DNA of 64,000 nucleotides from Janthinobacterium lividum (lineage in GTDB: Bacteria > Pseudomonadota > Gammaproteobacteria > Burkholderiales > Burkholderiaceae_D): assembly GCF_034424625.1 (NCBI RefSeq), contig NZ_CP139976.1, positions 3,968,001 through 4,032,000 on the forward strand, read 5' to 3'. The position numbers and the translations under genes were made by a program. Of this stretch, positions 2,294-45,117 are shown one piece after another. The notes beneath the pieces are model-generated. The model was not told the DNA's origin. It worked only from the letters and a program-made list of their open reading frames with translations, and made no database searches. Every line of letters starts with the position of its first letter. Within the stretch, counting starts at the first letter, position 1.

Positions 2294-4729
2294 CTAGCGC
2301 CCATGCCAGTAACGCGGCCGGCTGGCCCGATACAAGGTCACGCCGATACCGTCGCCAAACGCCAGCACCACCGCTCCTTCCACATCCGTGCGCAGCCGCG
2401 CAATACCCATGTCCCCATAGCGCGCATACACTTGCGCCTTCGGATGCTTATAACGGTTCCTGTGTCCCACCTGGAAAATCGCCAAGGTCGGATGGACGGC
2501 GTTCAGGAACGCCGGCGTCGACGAGGTGCCGCTGCCATGATGGGGCGCCAGCACTACGTCGGCGGCCAGGTCGCCCTCCGCCGAGCGCGCCAGCAATTGC
2601 GCCTCTTGCGCCGCTTCGATGTCGCCAGCCAGCAGGATCGAGTGCTTGCCTGCCGTGATTTTCACGGTGCAACTGCGGGCGTTCGGCGTCAAGCTGATGT
2701 CCGTATGGCTGGCGGGCAGCGGGTGCAGCATGGCGAAGTGCACGCCTTCCCACGTCCAGCTCTGGCCCGCCATGCAGTGCAGATAGGGGTTGTGCAACGC
2801 CCGTCGCGCCTCGACGGCGGGATGGCCATCGAACAGCGACGAGGCCAGCCAGCCCACTTGCACGTTCTCCAACAGAGACATGGCGCCGCCTGCGTGATCG
2901 AGGTCGCTGTGGGAAATGATCACGCCGTCCAGCTTGGCTATGCCGCGTGCGCGCAGATAAGGCACGATGACCCGGCTGGAGCCATCGGAATCGAGGCTGT
3001 AGGCAGGGCCCGTGTCATACAGCAGGCGGTGGCCAGGCGTTTCCACCAGCACGGCCATGCCCTGCCCCACGTCAAAGGCCGTCACCCACATGCCACCTTG
3101 CGGCGGACTGGACGGCAAGGCCGTCAGCAGCGGCAGCCAGCCCAGCATGCCCGCCCAGCGGTGCGGCCAGCCGCGTGGCGCCAGCAGCCAGGCCGTGCCA
3201 AACAATGCCCAGCAAAAACTCCACATTGGCGGCGCGGGCGCCGTCCACACGGCAAAGCGGCGCGCGCCCAGCCATTCGAGCACCTGCGCCAGCATCTGCA
3301 CGATGGTGTGCGCCAGCAGCAGCAATCCGTCAGACAGGGGCGCTGGCAGCAGGCTGCCAGCCAGCGACAAGGGCGTGACGACCAGGCTGATGACAGGAAT
3401 GGCCAGCGCATTGGCGACAGGCGACACGAGCGACACTTGCGAGAACAGCAGCATCGTCAACGGCACCAGCCCCACCGTCACCACATACTGCGTGTGTGCG
3501 CCCAGCGCCACGGCAGCAAGCAAACGGCGCCAGCGTCCGGCCTGCGGCGGCATGGACGCCGTGGTGCGCCCTGCCGTTGCGTACAGCATGGTGGCGACGG
3601 CGCCGAACGACAGCCAGAAGCCGGGCCACAGCACGGCCCACGGATCGAGCAGCACGACCACGCCCAGCGCCAGGCACAGGATATGGACGATGCTGGCGAT
3701 GCGTCCCAGCCACAGGGCCAGCGCCACCACCAGCAACATATACAAGGTGCGCTGCGCGGGCACGCCAAAGCCGGCCAGCAGCACATACAAAAATGCCGCC
3801 AGCGCGCCGGCCAGCGCCGCCACCTTTTGCGCCGGCAGCCGCAGTGGCAACTGCCAGCCGGTAAAAAACGAGCGCCGCCACAACGTGCCGGCACCAAGCG
3901 CAAAGAGTCCCGCGATCATGGTAATGTGCAGACCGGATATCGAAATCAGATGGCTCACGCCAGTGCGGTTGAACACTTGCCAGTCCGACTGGGGAATCGC
4001 CCGCTGGTCGCCCACCACCAGCGCCACGATCACGCCCGCATACTGCTTGCCTTCCAGGCTGCGCACGATGCGCGCGCGCAATGCCGCGCGGCTGGCCTCC
4101 ACCACGTTGCCGAAGCCGGGCACGAAAGCGGTCAGGCGCACGTTCGGCGTATCGGCGCGCGGCTGCGGCCGCACATAGCCCGTGGCGCGCACGCCCTGCT
4201 CCAGCAGCCACGCCTCGTAGTCAAAACCCATCGGGTTCGCATTGCCGTGCGGACGCTGCAAGCGCACCGTCAGGCGCCAGCGTTCGCCAGGCTGCACGTC
4301 GCCCACCTCGTTCGTCACTTCATCACGAAAACCTGCGTACCAGGACAGGGCGATCAGGGGCGGCACCTTCGCCCCAACAGCCTTCTCCACGGAAAAATTG
4401 AAGCGCACGCCCTGCTCGAAGCGGTACGGCAGGCTGGCTACCGTACCCGTGACAACAATGTCCTGGCCTTCATCAGCCAGCGCCAGTTGCGGCGCCATGG
4501 CGGCCTGGGCCAGCCAGGCGGCCCAGTAAAAGCCCAGTCCCACGCCAGCGGCAAGCGCAACAGTGGAACGCCACCAGGAATGCCAGCGCGCATGGCGGCA
4601 CAGCAGCAGTGCCGCCAGCAGCGACACGCCAGCGGTCACCCACAGCAACACGCCCCCATACGGCGGCAAGCTTGCCTGCGTCTGCAACCAGGCGGCGCCA
4701 GCGGCAAAGCCGAGTATCAGGGTGCGCAT
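2294..4729 (-). CDS. comEC: DNA internalization competence protein ComEC/Rec2
   Basis: Inner-membrane channel for single-stranded DNA in natural transformation. The 811-aa protein has the full ComEC order: N-terminal membrane segments with a DUF4131-type soluble domain, the multi-helix Competence domain (RTGVSHLISISGLHITMIAG near residue 260), and a C-terminal metallo-beta-lactamase domain. The last shows FDVGQGMAVLVE, the metal-binding HSDLDH motif and a PHHGS motif. The frame is open further upstream to 4915, but that extension overlaps the divergent methyltransferase promoter and is not hydrophobic, so ATG 4729 (MRTLILGF) is chosen. No other competence genes lie in the window. Confidence 0.93.
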   Translation of the reverse strand: MRTLILGFAAGAAWLQTQASLPPYGGVLLWVTAGVSLLAALLLCRHARWHSWWRSTVALAAGVGLGFYWAAWLAQAAMAPQLALADEGQDIVVTGTVASLPYRFEQGVRFNFSVEKAVGAKVPPLIALSWYAGFRDEVTNEVGDVQPGERWRLTVRLQRPHGNANPMGFDYEAWLLEQGVRATGYVRPQPRADTPNVRLTAFVPGFGNVVEASRAALRARIVRSLEGKQYAGVIVALVVGDQRAIPQSDWQVFNRTGVSHLISISGLHITMIAGLFALGAGTLWRRSFFTGWQLPLRLPAQKVAALAGALAAFLYVLLAGFGVPAQRTLYMLLVVALALWLGRIASIVHILCLALGVVVLLDPWAVLWPGFWLSFGAVATMLYATAGRTTASMPPQAGRWRRLLAAVALGAHTQYVVTVGLVPLTMLLFSQVSLVSPVANALAIPVISLVVTPLSLAGSLLPAPLSDGLLLLAHTIVQMLAQVLEWLGARRFAVWTAPAPPMWSFCWALFGTAWLLAPRGWPHRWAGMLGWLPLLTALPSSPPQGGMWVTAFDVGQGMAVLVETPGHRLLYDTGPAYSLDSDGSSRVIVPYLRARGIAKLDGVIISHSDLDHAGGAMSLLENVQVGWLASSLFDGHPAVEARRALHNPYLHCMAGQSWTWEGVHFAMLHPLPASHTDISLTPNARSCTVKITAGKHSILLAGDIEAAQEAQLLARSAEGDLAADVVLAPHHGSGTSSTPAFLNAVHPTLAIFQVGHRNRYKHPKAQVYARYGDMGIARLRTDVEGAVVLAFGDGIGVTLYRASRPRYWHGR

Positions 4730-23509: not shown

Positions 23510-24574
23510 ATGAATCAACTTATCCTCGTCCTGCCCTTCGCCTTGCCCAATGCCGAACTGGCTGCCGACCTGCTCAAGGTACTGCAGGCACCCGCCCTGG
23601 CGGCCCTGCTGTCGCGCACCTCTACTTGCAATTTGGAAACCTTTGACAACGCCAACCGCCTGCTGCCGCATGAAGCGTGGCTGGCGCACGCCTTGGGCCT
23701 GGCGTCCGCGCCCAACGGCGAAGCAGCGCAGGCGGCCTTTGCCGCCCAGGCCATGCGCGGCTATGGTCTGACGCCGGAACCTGGCGCGCGTTACTTCCTG
23801 CTGCATCCGGCCCACCTGGCCATCGCCCGCAGCCATATCAGCCTGGAAGACTTGCGCCAGCTCAAGCTGAGCGAGGCCGATGGCCGCACGCTGTTCGACA
23901 CGGCGCGTCCGTATTTCGACGAGATCGGCCAGCCCCTGTCATATGGCGACGCGGGCACCTGGTTCATGCGCGCCGATGGCTGGAGCGACTTGCAGTGCGC
24001 CACGCCGGATGCCGCCACCACGCAAGACCTGTCCGTGTGGATGCCGGAAGGCGAGCATGCGCGCGCCGCGCGCCGCCTGCAGAACGAAGTGCAGATGCTG
24101 TGGCATGAACATCCCGTCAATGCGGCGCGCGAAGAACGGGGCTTGAAAGCCATCAACTCGTTCTGGATCTGGGGCGGGAGCCTGGCCACGGCCGCATCTG
24201 CAACTGCATCGGCGCGCTGCGCGGCCAGCCTGCATACGAAGGACGCGCCCGGCTGGCTGGCTGCGCTGGCGGAACCGGCGCAGCGCGATGCCAGTCCAAG
24301 CAGTGTATTGGCAAGCAAACAGGACGCGATCGTCGTGCTCGGCGGCCTGATCGAAGCGGCGCAGGCCCAGGAATGGGGCATGTGGCTGCAGCAGTTGCAA
24401 GCGCTGGAAGCCGACTGGTTTGCGCCCCTGCTGGCCGCCCTGAAAGATGGCCGCCTGGACCAGCTGCGCCTGGTGCTGAGCCACCGCGACGCCTGGCTAG
24501 CCAGCAACACCAGCAAGCATGCGCAGCGCAAATTCTGGCGCGCGATTACCCTGAGCAAGTTGAAAGCATCATGA
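23510..24574 (+). CDS. Conserved hypothetical protein translationally coupled to recJ
   Basis: A 354-aa protein beginning MNQLILVLPFALP. Visible segments are EPGARYFLLHPAHLAIARSH, a WSDLQCATPDA region, and LKAINSFWIWGGS followed by a low-complexity Ala/Ser stretch. Proteins of this kind are common directly before recJ in Burkholderiales; some databases label them as phosphoglycerate-mutase-like, but no catalytic motif of that superfamily is evident here. ATG 23510 is chosen over 23381 because the upstream part is AT-rich non-coding-looking sequence. Its stop overlaps the recJ ATG (ATGA). Function unknown. Confidence 0.8.
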   Translation: MNQLILVLPFALPNAELAADLLKVLQAPALAALLSRTSTCNLETFDNANRLLPHEAWLAHALGLASAPNGEAAQAAFAAQAMRGYGLTPEPGARYFLLHPAHLAIARSHISLEDLRQLKLSEADGRTLFDTARPYFDEIGQPLSYGDAGTWFMRADGWSDLQCATPDAATTQDLSVWMPEGEHARAARRLQNEVQMLWHEHPVNAAREERGLKAINSFWIWGGSLATAASATASARCAASLHTKDAPGWLAALAEPAQRDASPSSVLASKQDAIVVLGGLIEAAQAQEWGMWLQQLQALEADWFAPLLAALKDGRLDQLRLVLSHRDAWLASNTSKHAQRKFWRAITLSKLKAS

Positions 24575-26271
24575 CCCGTACCCGCATCGCCACCCGCCCC
24601 TGCCCTTACCGCGAATCCGAACTGCTGCGCCAGGGCGGCATCCATCCCGTGCTGGCCCGCCTGTACGCGTCGCGCGGCCTGTCCGACGCGGCAGAACTGT
24701 CGAGCGAACTGGCGGCCCTGATTCCGCCGTCCGGCTTGCTGCACATCGGCGCGGCCGGCGTCTTCCTGGCCGACGCGATTGCTGCCAAGAAACGCATGGT
24801 CATCGTCGCCGACTATGACTGCGACGGCGCCACCGCCTGCGCCGTGGCCATCCGCGGCTTGCGCGCCATGGGCGCCGACGTCGATTTCATCGTGCCCAAC
24901 CGTTTTGAGTACGGCTATGGCCTGACGCCGGAAATCGTCGAGCTCACTGCCCGCGAAAAGTCGCCCGACATCATCATCACCGTCGACAACGGCATCGCCA
25001 GCATCGACGGCGTGGCCGAGGCAAACCGGCGCGGCATCCAGGTGGTTGTCACCGACCACCATTTGCCAGCCGACACCCTGCCCGACGCGGCCGTCATCGT
25101 CAACCCGAACCAGCCCGCCTGCGGTTTCCCCAGCAAACATCTGGCCGGCGTGGGCGTCGTGTTCTACGTGCTGCTGGCCCTGCGCGCGGAGCTGCGCCGG
25201 CGCGGCATCTTTGATGCGCAAACGCAACCCAAGCTCGATAACCTGCTCGACCTGGTGGCCCTGGGCACGGTGGCCGATGTCGTGCGCCTCGATACGAACA
25301 ACCGCATCCTCGTCGCGCAAGGCTTGAAACGCATGCGCAAAGGCAATATGCACGCAGGCGTGGCGGCGCTCTTTCGCGTGGCGGGCCGCGAAGCGCGCAG
25401 CGCCACGCCCTTCGACCTGGGATTTGCGCTGGGACCGCGCCTGAATGCGGCCGGGCGCCTGCAAGACATGTCACTGGGTATCGAATGCCTGATCACGGAC
25501 GACGAAGGCCGCGCCTGGGCGCTGGCGCAGCAGTTGAACGAGATTAACCTGAAGCGCCGCGAAATCGAGGCGGAAATGCAGGATACGGCCCTGCTGCACC
25601 TCGATGATTTCGAACCGGCCAACAGCAGCACCATCAGCGTGTTCGATGAATCCTGGCACCAGGGCGTGATCGGCATCGTCGCCTCGCGCCTGAAGGAAAA
25701 GTTTTATCGCCCGACCATCACGTTTGCGCCCGGCGCGGACGGCTGGATCAAGGGTTCGGGCCGCTCGATTCCCGGCTTCCACTTGCGCGACGCGCTCGAC
25801 CTCGTGTCGAAACGGGCACCCAGCCTGATCGACAAGTTCGGCGGCCACGCCATGGCGGCGGGCTTGACCATCCGCGCCGACGCCTTCGACGCATTTTCCC
25901 AGGCCTTCGAAGCCGTGGGGCAAGCCTGGCTCAGCCAGCAACAACTGGAAAGAGTGGTGGAAACGGACGGTCCGCTGGAAGACGCCTACTACACGACAGC
26001 CTTCATCGAGCTGATGGATGGCCAGGTGTGGGGCCAGGGCTTCGCCCCGCCCGTCTTCTGCGATGAATTCCGCGTCGTCAGCCAGCGCATCTTAAAAGAG
26101 CGCCATTTGAAACTGCTGCTGGAAAAGAACGGCGTGCGCTTCGATGCCATCTGGTTCGGGCATACGGACGCACTGGGCGAACGCACGCGGGTCGCGTTCA
26201 GGCTCGATGCGAATGAATACAATGGCACGACCAAAGTACAACTTATGGTGGAGCACGCCGAGCCTGTGTAG
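24571..26271 (+). CDS. recJ: Single-stranded-DNA-specific 5'-3' exonuclease RecJ
   Basis: A 566-aa DHH-superfamily exonuclease for recombination and mismatch/base-excision repair. The metal-binding DHH motifs are visible (VADYDCDGATACA, ITVDNGIAS, VVTDHHLPA). So are the DHHA1 motif KFGGHAMAAGLTI and the C-terminal OB-fold end (VQLMVEHAEPV). Length matches E. coli RecJ (577 aa). ATG 24571 overlaps the previous stop by 4 nt; an in-frame upstream extension inside that gene is spurious. The structured repeat element starts 2 nt after its stop. Confidence 0.96.
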   Translation: MTRTRIATRPCPYRESELLRQGGIHPVLARLYASRGLSDAAELSSELAALIPPSGLLHIGAAGVFLADAIAAKKRMVIVADYDCDGATACAVAIRGLRAMGADVDFIVPNRFEYGYGLTPEIVELTAREKSPDIIITVDNGIASIDGVAEANRRGIQVVVTDHHLPADTLPDAAVIVNPNQPACGFPSKHLAGVGVVFYVLLALRAELRRRGIFDAQTQPKLDNLLDLVALGTVADVVRLDTNNRILVAQGLKRMRKGNMHAGVAALFRVAGREARSATPFDLGFALGPRLNAAGRLQDMSLGIECLITDDEGRAWALAQQLNEINLKRREIEAEMQDTALLHLDDFEPANSSTISVFDESWHQGVIGIVASRLKEKFYRPTITFAPGADGWIKGSGRSIPGFHLRDALDLVSKRAPSLIDKFGGHAMAAGLTIRADAFDAFSQAFEAVGQAWLSQQQLERVVETDGPLEDAYYTTAFIELMDGQVWGQGFAPPVFCDEFRVVSQRILKERHLKLLLEKNGVRFDAIWFGHTDALGERTRVAFRLDANEYNGTTKVQLMVEHAEPV

Positions 26272-26273
26272 TG

Positions 26274-26392
26274 ACACCTGACACAACCTGCTGCGCGTCG
26301 GCATAGGTCGCCTGCGATGCTCACCGTACTGGAAGTACGGTTGCGCTTCTCGACCACCTCTTCCTTCCGCTCGCTACGGTTGTGTCAGGTGT
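26274..26392. repeat. Structured dispersed repeat element, copy A (after recJ)
   Basis: A 119-bp element bounded by a perfect 15-bp inverted repeat: ACACCTGACACAACC (26274-26288) and its complement (26378-26392). Internal stems: GGTCG (26306-26310) with CGACC (26351-26355), and CCGTACT-gga-AGTACGG (26324-26340). It shares the blocks CTGCGCGTCG, CCTGCGATGCTCAC, GTTGCGCTTCT and TCCGCTCGCTACG with copy B at 44933-45063, while the paired segments differ between copies. It begins 2 nt after the recJ stop. May act as a terminator, 3'-end stabiliser or mobile palindromic repeat. Confidence 0.8.
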
Positions 26393-26503
26393 TGCGACGT
26401 TTGTGGCCTTATTGCTGTATCTCAAACTTCTGTGGAACAAAGTGATATCAAATCACGGCGATAACCGACACATGCCTTCCCCATCGGAAAGCTATACAGT
26501 CCC

Positions 26504-26917: not shown

Positions 26918-27197
26918 GACCGGCAAGATCGCACATTCAGTAAATTCGTTAAATTCGTTATAAAACAAAAAATGCAAGCGCCGTTGCTGTAAAAAACACC
27001 GTCACGCCTCGATACACCTCTGATAACCTTGCTTTTAAGACTTAATCAGGCTGACAAGGTTCCATCCATCCATAGGCAAATTTGCCACATTTTATTGCAT
27101 AAATAAAAATATTGATTGAAAATAGTTAACATTTATTTGGCAAATTCACTAAAATCGATGACGCATCAGGAAATTCCCAATGATGCATGATCAGTTT
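26918..27197. other. AT-rich promoter region upstream of the riboswitch
   Basis: About 280 bp, unusually AT-rich, with a direct repeat AAATTCGTTAAATTCGTTA near 26942-26960, a perfect palindrome GGCAAATTTGCC (27075-27086) and a second GGCAAATT at 27140-27147. It precedes the cyclic-di-GMP riboswitch and must contain its promoter; TAAAAT at 27151-27156 is a possible -10. No gene seen. Confidence 0.5.
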
Positions 27198-27277
27198 TGA
27201 GGGCAAACCCGTCGAAAGGCGGGGACGCAAAGCCACCGGCCTACCGCGCGCAAGCGCCACGGCAGCGGGGCTGCCAA
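27198..27277 (+). promoter_or_regulatory. Cyclic-di-GMP-I (GEMM-I) riboswitch
   Basis: The GEMM-I consensus is clear: GGGCAAACC (27201-27209), a GAAA tetraloop (27214-27217), GGGACGCAAAGCC (27221-27233), then CCGGCCTA (27236-27243) and the P3 hairpin GGCAGCGGGGCTGCC (27261-27275). Such aptamers bind c-di-GMP between the two helices. It lies about 85 nt before the ATG of the sedolisin-like lipoprotein, whose expression it should switch. An ORF starting with TTG inside the aptamer is an artefact. Confidence 0.93.
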
Positions 27278-27361
27278 TGCAGGGCCGGGACCGCCAGCGC
27301 GCGGCGCCAGCTTGGAAGCATTGTCGAGATGTGGCCCTCGCCCAACTCGGAGAGTTTCGCC

Positions 27362-29980
27362 ATGAAAAAAAACATTCCCCCGCATCACCGTCACGGGCGC
27401 CTGCTGCTGGGCGCCACAGCCGCCCTCCTGCTGGCCGCTTGCGGTCCCGGCCAGGAAACATCGACACCGCCTGCCGCCATCGCCACGGCCGCGACACAGT
27501 TCACTGTCGAGGTGCCCGTCATCCCTCCCGCCGTCGGCGCGCTGGTGGTGCAACCGATGTTCCATGCGGCCCCGGCCCTGCTCGATGCGCCTGACGGGCG
27601 CGACAGTGCCAACAGCAGCGGCTCGGCCCACTGGCGGCCGCACTTGCAAAACGTGCCCGGCGCCATGCGGGAAATGACCACGCGCCGCCTGACGGCACAA
27701 AAAATCGCCGCCTCGGAACAGGCGGCACAGGATATCGCCCCCTTGCTGGACGGCGGCGCCAGCGACATCGCCGCGCCCATGGCCGGCAGCAGCGTGGTGG
27801 CGACCTATTCTCCCGCGCAAATCCGCGCCGCCTACGACTTGCCCGCCCTGCCGGCGGCCGGCACGGCGCTGACGCCAGCCCAGGCGGCCCAGCTGGGCGC
27901 GGGACAGACGATCTACATCGTCGACGCCATGCACAACCCGAACGCGGCGGCCGAACTGGCCATCTTCAACCAGAAGTTCGGCTTGCCCGGCTGCACCACC
28001 AAGGCTATCGCCACGAATGCCACCCTGCCCCTGCCGCCCGCCCCGGCCAGCGGCTGTGAATTTTCTGTTGTCTACAACACGCCATCGAGCACCATGACGG
28101 CCACTGCGCCCGCCTATAACTCGGGCTGGGCCATGGAAATCGCGCTCGACGTGCAGTGGGCGCATGCCACGGCGCCGCTGGCGCGCATCGTGCTGATCGA
28201 GGCGCCCGACGCTTCCATCAACAGCCTGCTGGGCGCCGTGCGCCTGGCCAACCAGATGGGGCCTGGCGTCGTGTCGATGAGCTTTGGCGCCGCCGAAGGC
28301 AACTGGACAGCTTCCGTCGACAGCGCCTTCACGGGCAAGAACATGAGCTACCTGGCCGCCACGGGCGATTCGGGCAGCGGCGTGTCCTGGCCGTCCGTGT
28401 CGTCCAACGTGCTGGCCGTGGGCGGCACCACGCTCAGCTACAGCGGCAGCGGCGTGCGCAGCGAAACGGCCTGGTCCGGCACGGGCGGCGGCATCAGCGC
28501 CTATACGGCACTGCCCACCTACCAGACGGCCAGCGTGCCCGGCCTGACCAACTTGCTGCGCCGCAACGTGGCCGACGTGGCCTTCAATGCCGACCCCGCC
28601 ACGGGCCAGTACACGGCCGTGATGACACCCGGCAGCAGCACCGCCAGCTGGCTCAGCATCGGCGGCACCAGCCTGTCCACGCCGCAATGGGCCGGCCTGG
28701 TCGCCATCACCAACGCCAGCCGCGCGCTGCAAGCGAAGACGGCGCTCGGCTTGCCGCACAGCATCTTGTACGGCCAGATCGCCAGCGTGCCCGGCACTTT
28801 CGCCAGCAGCTTTGCCGACATCACGCGCGGCAGCAACGGCACGTGCAGCGTGTGCACGGCCAGGGTCGGCTATGACCCGCTGGGCGGCCTGGGCACGCCG
28901 AACGTGAAAAGCCTGCTGGCCGGCCTGTCGGGCATGCAGACGGCACCGGCCGCGCCCGTGGTGGCGCCGGCCAGCATCAGCGGCGCGGCCGGCAAGCCGC
29001 TGTCGTTCACCGTCTCGGCCAGCGCTTCGAATCCACTCAGCTATACCATGCTGGGCGCGCCGGCCGGCATGAGCATCGCCGCCACGGGCGTGGTCAGCTG
29101 GGCCGCCCCCACCGCGGGCACGTATGCCGTGACCATGGTGGCCAAGGATACCGTCAGCGGCCTCAGTGGCCAGGGCGTGTACGCCATCGTCATTACCCCC
29201 GTCGCGCCGCCCGTCGTGGGCGCCGGCGCCATCACGGGCAAGGTTGGCACGGCCCTGGCGTTCAATGTCAGCGTCTCCGCCCCCAATCCCGTCAGCTACA
29301 CGCTGGGCGGCGCGCCGGCCGGCATGACGATCAGCAGCGCCGGACTGGTGAGCTGGGCCGCCCCGACGGCCGGCACCTACGCCGTCACCGTGACCGCCAC
29401 GGACGGCAAGACTGGCCTGAGCGGCAAAGGCATCTATACGGTGGCCATCGCCGCCCCGCTGCCCCCCGTCGTGACCGTGGCCAGCGTGAGCGGCAAGCCG
29501 GGCGTGGCCCTGTCGTTCGCCGCCACGACGGTGGCGCCCAACCCCGTCACCTACAGCCTGTCGGGCGCGCCATCCGGCATGGCCGTCAGCGCCGCCGGCG
29601 TCGTCAGCTGGGCCAGCCCCGTGCTGGGCAGCTACAGCGTGGCCATCATCGCCAAAGATACCAGGACGGGCTTGACGGGCCAGGCCGTGGCCGCAGTGAA
29701 AATCGCCGCCGCCGGTCCCACGATCAGCGCCGCCGCCATGACGGGCGTGGCCGGCAAGGCCATGAGCGGCAGCATCGTGCTGACGGCGCCCGGCGCGAAC
29801 GCCCTGTGGATCTCCATCCTCGGTGCGCCGCTGGGCATGCAGTTTTCCATGAGCGGCATGACCATCACGGCCCGCTGGCCCCTGCCGGTGACCGGCAGCT
29901 ATGCACTGAGGGTCGTGGCGCTGGACAGTAACGGCTTGACGGCGCAGCTCAACGTACCCATCACCGTCACGGCCAGATAA
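27362..29980 (+). CDS. Lipoprotein S53 (sedolisin-like) peptidase with Ig-like repeats
   Basis: An 872-aa surface-type protein. The signal peptide ends in a lipobox (LLLAAC, Cys27), so it should be lipid-anchored. The S53 catalytic set is visible: Glu259 and Asp263 in GWAMEIALDVQ, oxyanion Asp336 in AATGDSGSG and nucleophile Ser437 in GGTSLSTPQWAG, plus a YDPLGGLGTPN motif near the calcium site. The N-terminal region (28-140) is shorter than usual sedolisin pro-domains. From about residue 545 come four putative Ig (He_PIG-like) repeats of about 85 residues with the pattern GAPAGM...GVVSWAAPTAGTYAV. Controlled by the upstream c-di-GMP riboswitch. Sedolisins act at acidic pH; the substrate is unknown. 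Confidence 0.85.
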   Translation: MKKNIPPHHRHGRLLLGATAALLLAACGPGQETSTPPAAIATAATQFTVEVPVIPPAVGALVVQPMFHAAPALLDAPDGRDSANSSGSAHWRPHLQNVPGAMREMTTRRLTAQKIAASEQAAQDIAPLLDGGASDIAAPMAGSSVVATYSPAQIRAAYDLPALPAAGTALTPAQAAQLGAGQTIYIVDAMHNPNAAAELAIFNQKFGLPGCTTKAIATNATLPLPPAPASGCEFSVVYNTPSSTMTATAPAYNSGWAMEIALDVQWAHATAPLARIVLIEAPDASINSLLGAVRLANQMGPGVVSMSFGAAEGNWTASVDSAFTGKNMSYLAATGDSGSGVSWPSVSSNVLAVGGTTLSYSGSGVRSETAWSGTGGGISAYTALPTYQTASVPGLTNLLRRNVADVAFNADPATGQYTAVMTPGSSTASWLSIGGTSLSTPQWAGLVAITNASRALQAKTALGLPHSILYGQIASVPGTFASSFADITRGSNGTCSVCTARVGYDPLGGLGTPNVKSLLAGLSGMQTAPAAPVVAPASISGAAGKPLSFTVSASASNPLSYTMLGAPAGMSIAATGVVSWAAPTAGTYAVTMVAKDTVSGLSGQGVYAIVITPVAPPVVGAGAITGKVGTALAFNVSVSAPNPVSYTLGGAPAGMTISSAGLVSWAAPTAGTYAVTVTATDGKTGLSGKGIYTVAIAAPLPPVVTVASVSGKPGVALSFAATTVAPNPVTYSLSGAPSGMAVSAAGVVSWASPVLGSYSVAIIAKDTRTGLTGQAVAAVKIAAAGPTISAAAMTGVAGKAMSGSIVLTAPGANALWISILGAPLGMQFSMSGMTITARWPLPVTGSYALRVVALDSNGLTAQLNVPITVTAR

Positions 29981-43400: not shown

Positions 43401-44930
43401 ATGACTACGGATATCCAAGAACAAGCCGCCGCCCCCGATGAAAACAAGATCATCGCCGAGCGCCGCGTCAAGCTGGCAGCACTGCGCGAACAAGGCGTCG
43501 CCTTCCCGAACGATTTCCGCCCCGAGCACAAGGCGGCAGATCTGCATGCACAATACGGCAGCAAGACGCGCGAAGAGCTGGAAGCCGAACCTGTCACCGT
43601 GGTGCTGGCCGGCCGCATGATGCTCAAGCGCGAAGCGGGCAAGAAAGCCGCTTTCGCCACCCTGCAGGACGCCTCCGGCCCGAAAGCCGACGGCCGCATC
43701 CAGATCTACGCCACGCTGGATCTCACCGGCGAAGCGGCCATGGCCGCCCTGCACCACTATGACCTGGGCGATATCCTGGGCGTGACGGGCACGCTGTTCA
43801 AGACCAAGACGGACGAACTGACCATCAAGGTCACGGAACTGCGTCTGATCACCAAGTCGCTGCGCCCGCTGCCGGACAAATTCCACGGCCTGGCCGACCA
43901 GGAAACGAAGTACCGCCAGCGCTATGTCGACCTGATCATGAACGAAGAGACGCGCCGCACCTTCAAGGCGCGCACCGCCGCCATCTCGTCGATCCGCCGC
44001 TTCATGGAAAAGAACGAGTTCATGGAAGTGGAAACGCCGATGCTGCACACGATCCCGGGCGGCGCGGCGGCAAAGCCGTTCATCACGCACCACAATGCGC
44101 TGGACATGCAAATGTTCCTGCGCATCGCGCCCGAGCTGTACCTGAAGCGCCTGGTCGTGGGCGGCTTCGACCGCGTGTTCGAGATCAACCGCAACTTCCG
44201 CAACGAAGGCGTGTCGATCCGTCACAACCCTGAATTCACGATGATGGAATTCTACGCGGCCTACACCGACTACAAATGGCTGATGGACTTCACGGAAGCC
44301 GTCATCCGCCAGGCAGCCATTGACGCGCACGGCACCGCCACCCTGACCTACGGCGGCCGCGAGCTGGACCTGGCCAAGCCGTTCCACCGCCTGACCATCG
44401 TCGAAGCGATCAACAAGTACGCGCCGGGCTACACGCCGGAGCAGTTGAACGATGCGGAATTCATCAAGGAAGAGCTGAAAAAATTCGGCGTCAAGCCGTT
44501 CGCCACGGCCGGCCTGGGCGCGCTGCAACTGGCGCTGTTCGAAGAAACGGCTGAAGCGCAGCTGTGGGAACCGACCTACATCATCGACTACCCGGTCGAA
44601 GTGTCGCCACTGGCGCGCGCTTCCGACACGGTGGCCGGCATCACCGAGCGCTTCGAGCTGTTCATGGTGGGCCGCGAAATCGCCAACGGCTTCTCCGAGT
44701 TGAACGACGCGGAAGACCAGTCGGCCCGCTTCCTGGCGCAAGTAGCCGCCAAGGACGCCGGCGATGAAGAGGCGATGTTCTACGACGCCGACTACATCCG
44801 CGCGCTGGAATACGGCATGCCGCCAGCCGGCGGCTGCGGCATCGGCATCGACCGCCTGATGATGATCATCACGGATTCGCCGAACATCCGCGACGTCCTG
44901 CTGTTCCCGCACCTCCGCCGCGAAGAGTGA
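43401..44930 (+). CDS. lysS: Lysyl-tRNA synthetase, class II
   Basis: A 509-aa enzyme that charges tRNA-Lys. It has the N-terminal OB-fold anticodon-binding domain ([32 protein letters not shown]) and the class II core: motif 2 [20 protein letters not shown] and motif 3 [12 protein letters not shown]. Length equals the bacterial norm (505 in E. coli). It directly follows prfB and the HAD gene, an arrangement that recalls the prfB-lysS order of many proteobacteria. A structured repeat and a terminator follow. Confidence 0.97.
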
Positions 44931-44932
44931 TG

Positions 44933-45063
44933 AACACCTGAAAAATCTACTGCGCGTCGCGATTTGCGGCCTGCGATGCTCACTGCCTCGGCGGCCCCGT
45001 GCCTAGCACAGTTGCGCTTCTTAGCCGCAACTCCCATCCGCTCGCTACGATTTTTCAGGCGTT
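44933..45063. repeat. Structured dispersed repeat element, copy B (after lysS)
   Basis: A 131-bp element related to 26274-26392. The terminal arms AACACCTGAAAAATC (44933-44947) and GATTTTTCAGGCGTT (45049-45063) pair at 14 of 15 positions, the exception being a possible G-U pair. A second stem is TTGCGGC (44964-44970) with GCCGCAA (45024-45030); a small GTGC-cta-GCAC hairpin lies near 45000. The arms differ from copy A but pair equally well, and four unpaired blocks are identical in both. It starts 2 nt after the lysS stop. Confidence 0.8.
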
Positions 45064-45077
45064 CGATGCTTCAAGGC

Positions 45078-45117
45078 AAAAAAAAGCCGCCTGGTCTCGC
45101 GATCAGGCGGCTTTTTT
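45078..45117. terminator. Bidirectional Rho-independent terminator between lysS and the sugar-acid operon
   Basis: AAGCCGCCTG (45084-45093) pairs with CAGGCGGCTT (45104-45113). An A-run precedes and a T-run follows, so it can stop lysS transcription (plus) and the oxidoreductase operon (minus). Confidence 0.92.

Follow-up and report, generated by a model that had tools for sequence, protein, structure and literature searches.

A dispersed hairpin element next to stop codons in Janthinobacterium lividum, probably a small mobile element defined by its fold

Within a stretch of 64,000 nucleotides of the Janthinobacterium lividum chromosome (NZ_CP139976.1, positions 3,968,001 to 4,032,000; hereafter the window), two similar hairpins follow the genes recJ and lysS. 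This raises the question of what kind of element comes to lie directly behind two unrelated genes with its fold preserved and its arms different. The sequence-only reading had offered three guesses: an RNA element of the 3' untranslated region (3'-UTR), an unusual terminator or a REP/MITE-like family. Re-reading the sequence confirmed both copies at the positions given in Table 1, each with four shared blocks between its arms, and both directly behind the stop codon of a plus-strand gene. Pfam supports the identity of the two genes, with the DHH, DHHA1 and RecJ_OB domains in recJ and tRNA-synt_2 in lysS. As also claimed, the outer arms differ between the copies yet stay complementary within each (ACACCTGACACAACC with GGTTGTGTCAGGTGT against ACACCTGAAAAATC with GATTTTTCAGGCGTT). 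The covariance-model match of copy 1 spans window positions 26273-26396. The folds are more stable than those of all 200 shuffled sequences, with z-scores of -5.1 for copy 1 and -4.7 for copy 2, whose hairpin tip is extended by an optional insert of about 14 nt. Rfam gave no match for either copy in the window.

Table 1. The two element copies, their parts and the neighbouring features, in window positions.
Feature	Position	Strand	Pairing and evidence
recJ, gene start uncertain	24571..26271	+	stop TAG 26269-26271; gene caller and Pfam
Element copy 1, 3' of recJ	26273..26393	+	about 120 nt, one long hairpin; 29-copy and multi-genus model matches
Copy 1, 5' outer arm ACACCTGACACAACC	26274..26288	+	pairs with 26378-26392
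Copy 1, core strand CCTGCTGCGCG	26287..26297	+	conserved alignment columns
Copy 1, core strand CCTGCGATGCTCAC	26311..26324	+	conserved alignment columns
Copy 1, variable tip hairpin CCGTACTGGAAGTACGG	26324..26340	+	fold and alignment
Copy 1, core strand GTTGCGCTTCTC	26340..26351	+	conserved alignment columns
Copy 1, core strand CCGCTCGCTACGG	26367..26379	+	conserved alignment columns
Copy 1, 3' outer arm GGTTGTGTCAGGTGT	26378..26392	+	pairs with 26274-26288
lysS, lysyl-tRNA synthetase	43401..44930	+	stop TGA 44928-44930; gene caller and Pfam tRNA-synt_2
Element copy 2, 3' of lysS	44932..45067	+	29-copy and multi-genus model matches
Copy 2, 5' outer arm ACACCTGAAAAATC	44934..44947	+	pairs with 45049-45063
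Copy 2, core strand CCTGCGATGCTCAC	44970..44983	+	alignment
Copy 2, core strand GTTGCGCTTCT	45011..45021	+	alignment
Copy 2, core strand CCGCTCGCTACG	45038..45049	+	alignment
Copy 2, 3' outer arm GATTTTTCAGGCGTT	45049..45063	+	sequence
Ordinary intrinsic terminator of lysS, 3' of copy 2	45078..45117	+	sequence, terminator test

From the outside inwards the hairpin is built of the arm, a first core segment, an inner stem, a second core segment and the tip. The outer arm of about 15 bp differs from copy to copy: among 201 copies from three genomes we counted 149 distinct 5' arms, and at the ends only about seven bases (GRACRCC) recur within the genus, each at 40-80%. The outer conserved core segment (CCTACTGCGCG opposite CGCTCGCTACGG) and the second one (CTGCGATGCTCAC opposite TGCGCTTCTC) are separated by a variable inner stem. 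Within the core segments, short paired runs alternate with nearly invariant pyrimidine-pyrimidine mismatches. In the same 201 copies the five mismatch positions hold a standard pair in 0, 0, 3, 17 and 2 of about 199 cases, and the fixed mismatches are C.C in 197 of 199 and C.T in 199 of 199. The tip is variable and carries the insert of about 14 nt in some copies. Inserts similar to GCCTCGGCGGCCCC, again of about 14 nt, were noted in the loci L003, L015, L019, L021 and L027, in the copy at G000:C1:1746478-1746613 (G000 being the genome of the window) and in L232 at 4071-4206. In that G000 copy, and likewise in the copy next to recJ in Janthinobacterium sp. FT68W, the 3' side of the inner stem contains an insert-like segment in inverted orientation.

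A covariance-model search, which had been recommended on the basis of the two copies, showed that they belong to a large family. The model was built from an alignment of 29 out of 30 loci, with L022, whose tip is deleted, left out. It matched at least 84 places in this chromosome, a lower bound because scoring covered 150 of the 4636 first-look candidates; the search gave 114 rows, from which 30 reverse-strand self-matches of the palindrome were removed. One 14-base block alone, with at most one mismatch allowed, has 64 occurrences in the genome, and its reversed control has none. Within the genus, 24 of 25 genomes (including this one) have matches, with 1 to at least 87 listed for each, among which reverse-strand self-matches are possible. 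Of the 195 genomes sampled across the family, at least 107 have matches; they represent 32 of 44 genera, and up to 18 candidates were scored per genome. With a second model, made from 43 chosen copies of several genera, we searched 368 other genomes of the class and obtained distant forms in 36 (E <= 1e-3, nine candidates per genome); the weakest of these may be chance matches. Several genome searches scored part of their candidates (150, 87, 18, 9 and 16), so copy numbers are lower bounds.

All 84 copies detected in this genome lie on its large contig. On the second contig, C2, none was found, with about 5.8 expected from its length (Poisson 0.003). The densest cluster in the genome comprises four copies in about 8 kb (G000:C1:5106743-5114995), and in another genus two copies adjoin each other directly, head to tail (G080:C12:447395-447638). 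The two halves of the chromosome gave copies in ratios of 19:18 and 30:17, no clear signal of a replication-strand bias when the origin is assumed at base 1. No DNA-level match to copy 1 was found in plasmid and phage records; the distant homologue L414 has partial matches in two plasmid records.

The complementarity of the arms, first described for the two window copies, holds across the family. In the 43-sequence alignment of several genera, 93.5% of the pair cells pair. Changes on both sides occur in 26 of the 42 pairs and amount to 278 double-changed cells, a number that no shuffle reached and that compares with 44-74 for slid partners. The inner stems covary as well. At orthologous sites the picture is looser. 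Among 24 orthologous pairs between G000 and the related genome G015, 22 double changes kept the pair (0-5 for slid partners), as did 27 single changes. Pairs were broken or restored by a further 57 single and 10 double changes. These broken and restored pairs indicate that pairing is a property of the family which is loosely enforced at each site. Some orthologous sites bear different core types, and mechanical processes, or replacement of a core by the core of another copy, may explain part of the covariation. The compensatory changes had been taken as a sign of selection for a folded structure; we retain the structured family with compensatory change, whereas covariation alone is no proof of selection on RNA, given the pair-breaking changes at shared sites and the many sites that are not shared at all.

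A comparison between relatives shows how often sites are occupied in one genome and empty in another. An orthologous element was found for 24 of the 84 copies in G015 and for 15 in a second relative, G004, with flanks about 94-96% identical, and 52 of the 84 lack an orthologous element in both. The lysS comparison covered 17 loci, one of them ending at a contig edge; the element is present in 3 of 16 Janthinobacterium genomes, and most of the others keep the terminator of lysS (Table 1) alone. At recJ, for which 16 Janthinobacterium loci were compared, 6 of 16 genomes have the full element. In a separate set of recJ 3' ends, 5 of 80 loci have a full match, all in Janthinobacterium. Decayed remnants, some of them hairpins of the arms only, were seen at recJ in other Janthinobacterium (37 of the 80 loci were inspected, in addition to the 16). 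In J. psychrotolerans and J. lividum HSC-65S10 (L240, L239), a short outer-arm hairpin follows recJ and the core is missing.

To read the target site, we joined the flanks of 17 sites without the element and searched for them in eight relatives; the 17 had been picked with a preference for TNA at the ends. Nine empty sites were readable. In three of these a TNA trinucleotide is single in the relatives and doubled around the element (TAA, TAA and TTA); in two more the difference is exactly three bases and the second copy is altered (TCA/TTG and TGA/GAT); four are disturbed. Around the two window copies no clear target duplication was seen. Over the whole of G000, TNA flanks the ends in a fixed register in 30 of 80 copies at each end; both ends have it in 13 copies, hardly more than the 11.2 expected under independence. 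Exact three-base repeats exceed their shuffled expectation in G015 (11 of 70 versus 3.6, p < 0.0005) and G004 (5 of 47 versus 2.1, p 0.03), and the excess is not significant in G000 (7 of 80 versus 3.9, p 0.09). Among distant homologues, 8 of 46 have an identical CTAG or CTNAG at both ends, compared with 1.0 in shuffled data (maximum 5), although four of these eight read CTAG, a self-complementary sequence that could belong to the arm rather than to a duplication. Copies shorter than 119 nt (4 of 84 in G000) were left out of the end, repeat, TNA-null, fold and in-frame-stop counts. Insertion, three-base duplication and placement are thus visible at the level of sequence comparison.

The placement itself is strongly skewed. 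We counted a copy as stop-adjacent if it starts between -10 and +12 nt of a stop codon, using a gene caller seeded with recJ and lysS. This applies to 65 of 84 copies in G000, 59 of 70 in G015 and 31 of 47 in G004, compared with 18.8 of 83, 17.4 of 69 and 9.3 of 44 expected under uniform placement in the same gaps with random orientation. The most common gap between stop codon and element start in G000 is 2-3 nt. This null and the TNA null below are restricted to copies flanked on either side by a called gene. Stop adjacency does not hold everywhere: among the best-scoring copies of four other genera it varies from 11 of 20 (g34), 4 of 7 (g56) and 1 of 3 (g44) to 0 of 11 (g27). Of the distant homologues, 12 of 30 begin 1-3 nt downstream of a putatively coding open frame of 78 codons or more.

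TAA and TGA are themselves TNA trinucleotides, so a stop codon of either kind fits the target. The 5' TNA in register is the in-frame stop itself in 15 of 80 copies in G000, 12 of 70 in G015 and 10 of 47 in G004, and the others lie a few bases off. Placement at random TNA sites predicts equal numbers of 5' and 3' ends at stops, namely 8.2 of 78 for each end in G000, 7.7 of 64 in G015 and 5.7 of 43 in G004. Observed were 43 5' ends and 3 3' ends in G000, 38 and 0 in G015, and 21 and 1 in G004, where copies with stops at both ends were entered under the 5' end only. When such copies are counted twice in G000, the numbers are 44 versus 4 (1 with both) within a narrow range around the stop and 65 versus 9 (7 with both) within a wide one. 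With a symmetric target, the one-way orientation has to be due either to selection or to an insertion process that distinguishes the strands. We rejected fold energy as its cause: in 78 of 80 copies the sense strand folds less stably than its complement, and the bias therefore does not serve the strongest hairpin in the mRNA.

We conclude that the element is probably a small non-autonomous transposable element which is defined by its fold, inserts at TNA with doubling of this trinucleotide and often does so at stop codons. It carries no gene of its own and consists of variable complementary arms around constant core strands. Insertion at TNA duplicates the trinucleotide, as several of the sites compared with element-free relatives show. 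Where the 5' end points towards the gene, the stop codon would survive and the element would form the beginning of the 3' untranslated region, presumably transcribed within the mRNA tail. The arms may stay complementary because the folded strand is recognised by a mobilising enzyme or by an RNA-binding factor, and mechanical template switching could contribute. Insertion at a stop trinucleotide would thus give one physical explanation for a placement that looks regulatory. The one-way orientation would reflect either strand-aware insertion or selection against reverse insertions through an effect of the hairpin in the mRNA. Against a transposable element stand the transposase search, which covered Y1_Tnp and found no mobilising enzyme, and the diversity of the 5' arms, whereas the ends of classical transposons are constant in sequence. 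The non-significant three-base repeats of G000, the disturbed empty sites, the missing clear duplication at the window copies, the ambiguous CTAG ends and the genera with less stop adjacency also weigh against it.

Of the three earlier guesses, REP/MITE-like family came closest. Like a MITE, the element is dispersed, has a length of about 120 nt with inverted repeat ends and no gene, is flanked by a three-base duplication and has been gained or lost between species. This genome holds at least 84 copies, and the duplication of TNA was found, exact or altered, in five of the nine readable empty sites. Constant terminal inverted repeats were not found in the element, as its arms are complementary only within a copy. 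It further differs from MITEs in that its constant parts are internal, in its one-way preference for stop codons and in that the search for Y1_Tnp found no autonomous partner. Duplications of TNA or TA are typical of IS5-family transposases. Integron attC sites are folded sites with an imperfect stem after a stop codon. The element resembles them in these respects, but its copies are scattered singly, also at recJ and lysS, and do not lie in cassette arrays. The REP part of the guess, that the copies are REP/REPIN-type repeats moved by a RAYT (Y1) transposase, is very unlikely. Its appeal lies in the dispersed extragenic palindromes, a likeness shared with REPs, BIMEs and REPINs, in two Y1_Tnp matches in the genome and in a GTAG within the complementary strand; some E. 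coli REPs also lie within 15 nt of stop codons and are reported to affect translation (PMC12306157). However, both Y1_Tnp genes are more than 30 kb from any copy, one has an internal stop codon, and their 1.5-kb flanks contain no similar inverted repeat, so that no RAYT gene flanked by the element was found among these two. REPs are described in PMC3733652 as palindromes of 20-40 bp with an unpaired GTAG or CGTC at one end, while the element measures about 120 nt, has a three-base duplication and lacks an association with a transposase. Its GTAG is not at an unpaired end but inside the stem (alignment pairs 18-128 and 19-127). The guess of an unusual terminator is not supported and is likewise very unlikely. 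A strong hairpin directly after genes, with 32 of 84 copies between convergent genes, does fit a terminator, but the T tract is absent: in the 15 nt beyond the arm the longest T run is 1-3 nt in 83 of 84 copies. The element is therefore not an intrinsic terminator. Moreover, an ordinary terminator-like site lies 30-88 nt beyond 12 of the 65 stop-adjacent copies, the lysS copy among them, compared with 0 of 65 in a control stretch. In these 12 cases the element is presumably located within the mRNA.

This location also bears on the remaining guess, a 3'-UTR RNA element kept for a host function such as slowing of the ribosome at the stop codon or protection of the mRNA end, its mobility being secondary or ancient. 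We regard it as possible, though doubtful. It would explain why stop adjacency is one-way beyond what the TNA target predicts, why the core mismatches are conserved and why covariation is strong. Some precedents are reported: in E. coli, REPs located up to 15 nt from a stop codon are said to stall ribosomes (PMC12306157), and by analogy it is plausible that a stop-adjacent element would do the same; several sX9 genes are upregulated under copper in X. campestris, as described in PMC10924375. On the other hand, most sites are not shared between species, the host genes are unrelated to each other, pairs at orthologous sites were broken or restored at least about as often as they were kept, and the sense strand is nearly always the less stable fold. 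The complementary arms could also arise without any structural selection if template switching in the quasi-palindrome rewrote one arm from its partner. This would produce arms that are long, nearly perfect and very variable, as observed, and the many single changes that break pairs at orthologous sites agree with it. Repeated correction of the palindrome should, however, erase the core mismatches, and their persistence in nearly all copies, together with the covariation of the inner stems, makes it unlikely that the process accounts for the fold.

The favoured reading of a mobile element can be extended through its distant homologues, which connect it to a known small RNA family, the Xanthomonas sRNA sX9 (Rfam: RF02228). 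The sX9 model has no match in the genome of the window, and the window copies remain below its gathering cut-off of 44 bits. Two distant homologues, L413 and L414, exceed this cut-off. Among 274 genomes, 9 gave a total of 25 sX9 matches, 8 of them exceeding the cut-off. On the same strand, 23 of these 25 coincide with or partly cover a match of the multi-genus model (20 at E < 1e-6), so sX9 and the element are related via intermediates. The 76 positions of the sX9 model correspond to the 3' half of the hairpin of the distant homologues; unlike the element, sX9 as modelled thus covers half of a hairpin. As the distant homologues contain sX9, whose expression is known from the literature, some members of the family are transcribed. 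According to PMC9029176, sX9 ranks among the most abundant sRNA annotations of bacteria, and our results suggest that sX9 is part of a mobile element, which would change how such annotations are read. Among the open PMC papers listed for the core motifs, REP, REPIN, MITE and sX9, none describes the element, which may be described elsewhere.

More speculatively, there could be a superfamily of mobile 3'-UTR hairpins across the Gammaproteobacteria (as defined by GTDB), of which sX9 is a fragment and which lands in sense orientation at stop codons. Its machinery might read folded strands in which pyrimidine mismatches recur at regular intervals and might be coupled to transcription or translation. 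Unrelated genes would in this way receive 3' ends that need no further evolution, and sX9-like sRNAs could arise from them. We regard this broader idea as possible, though doubtful.

A few further observations concern single loci. L083 and L084, from two genomes with one match each (G001 and G022), have the same 5' flank and quite different but complementary arms. The weakest class-wide matches, L430-L441, have mainly an apical motif in common, ATGCTCA[stem]CTGCGCTT, which is located in palindromes with other ends such as GGCTGTTGAAAAA; a still wider superfamily or chance similarity are both possible. In the window itself, Rfam detected a c-di-GMP-I riboswitch on the plus strand at 27192-27278 (85.6 bits), upstream of a predicted protein of 883 amino acids with Ig-like domains at 27329-29980.
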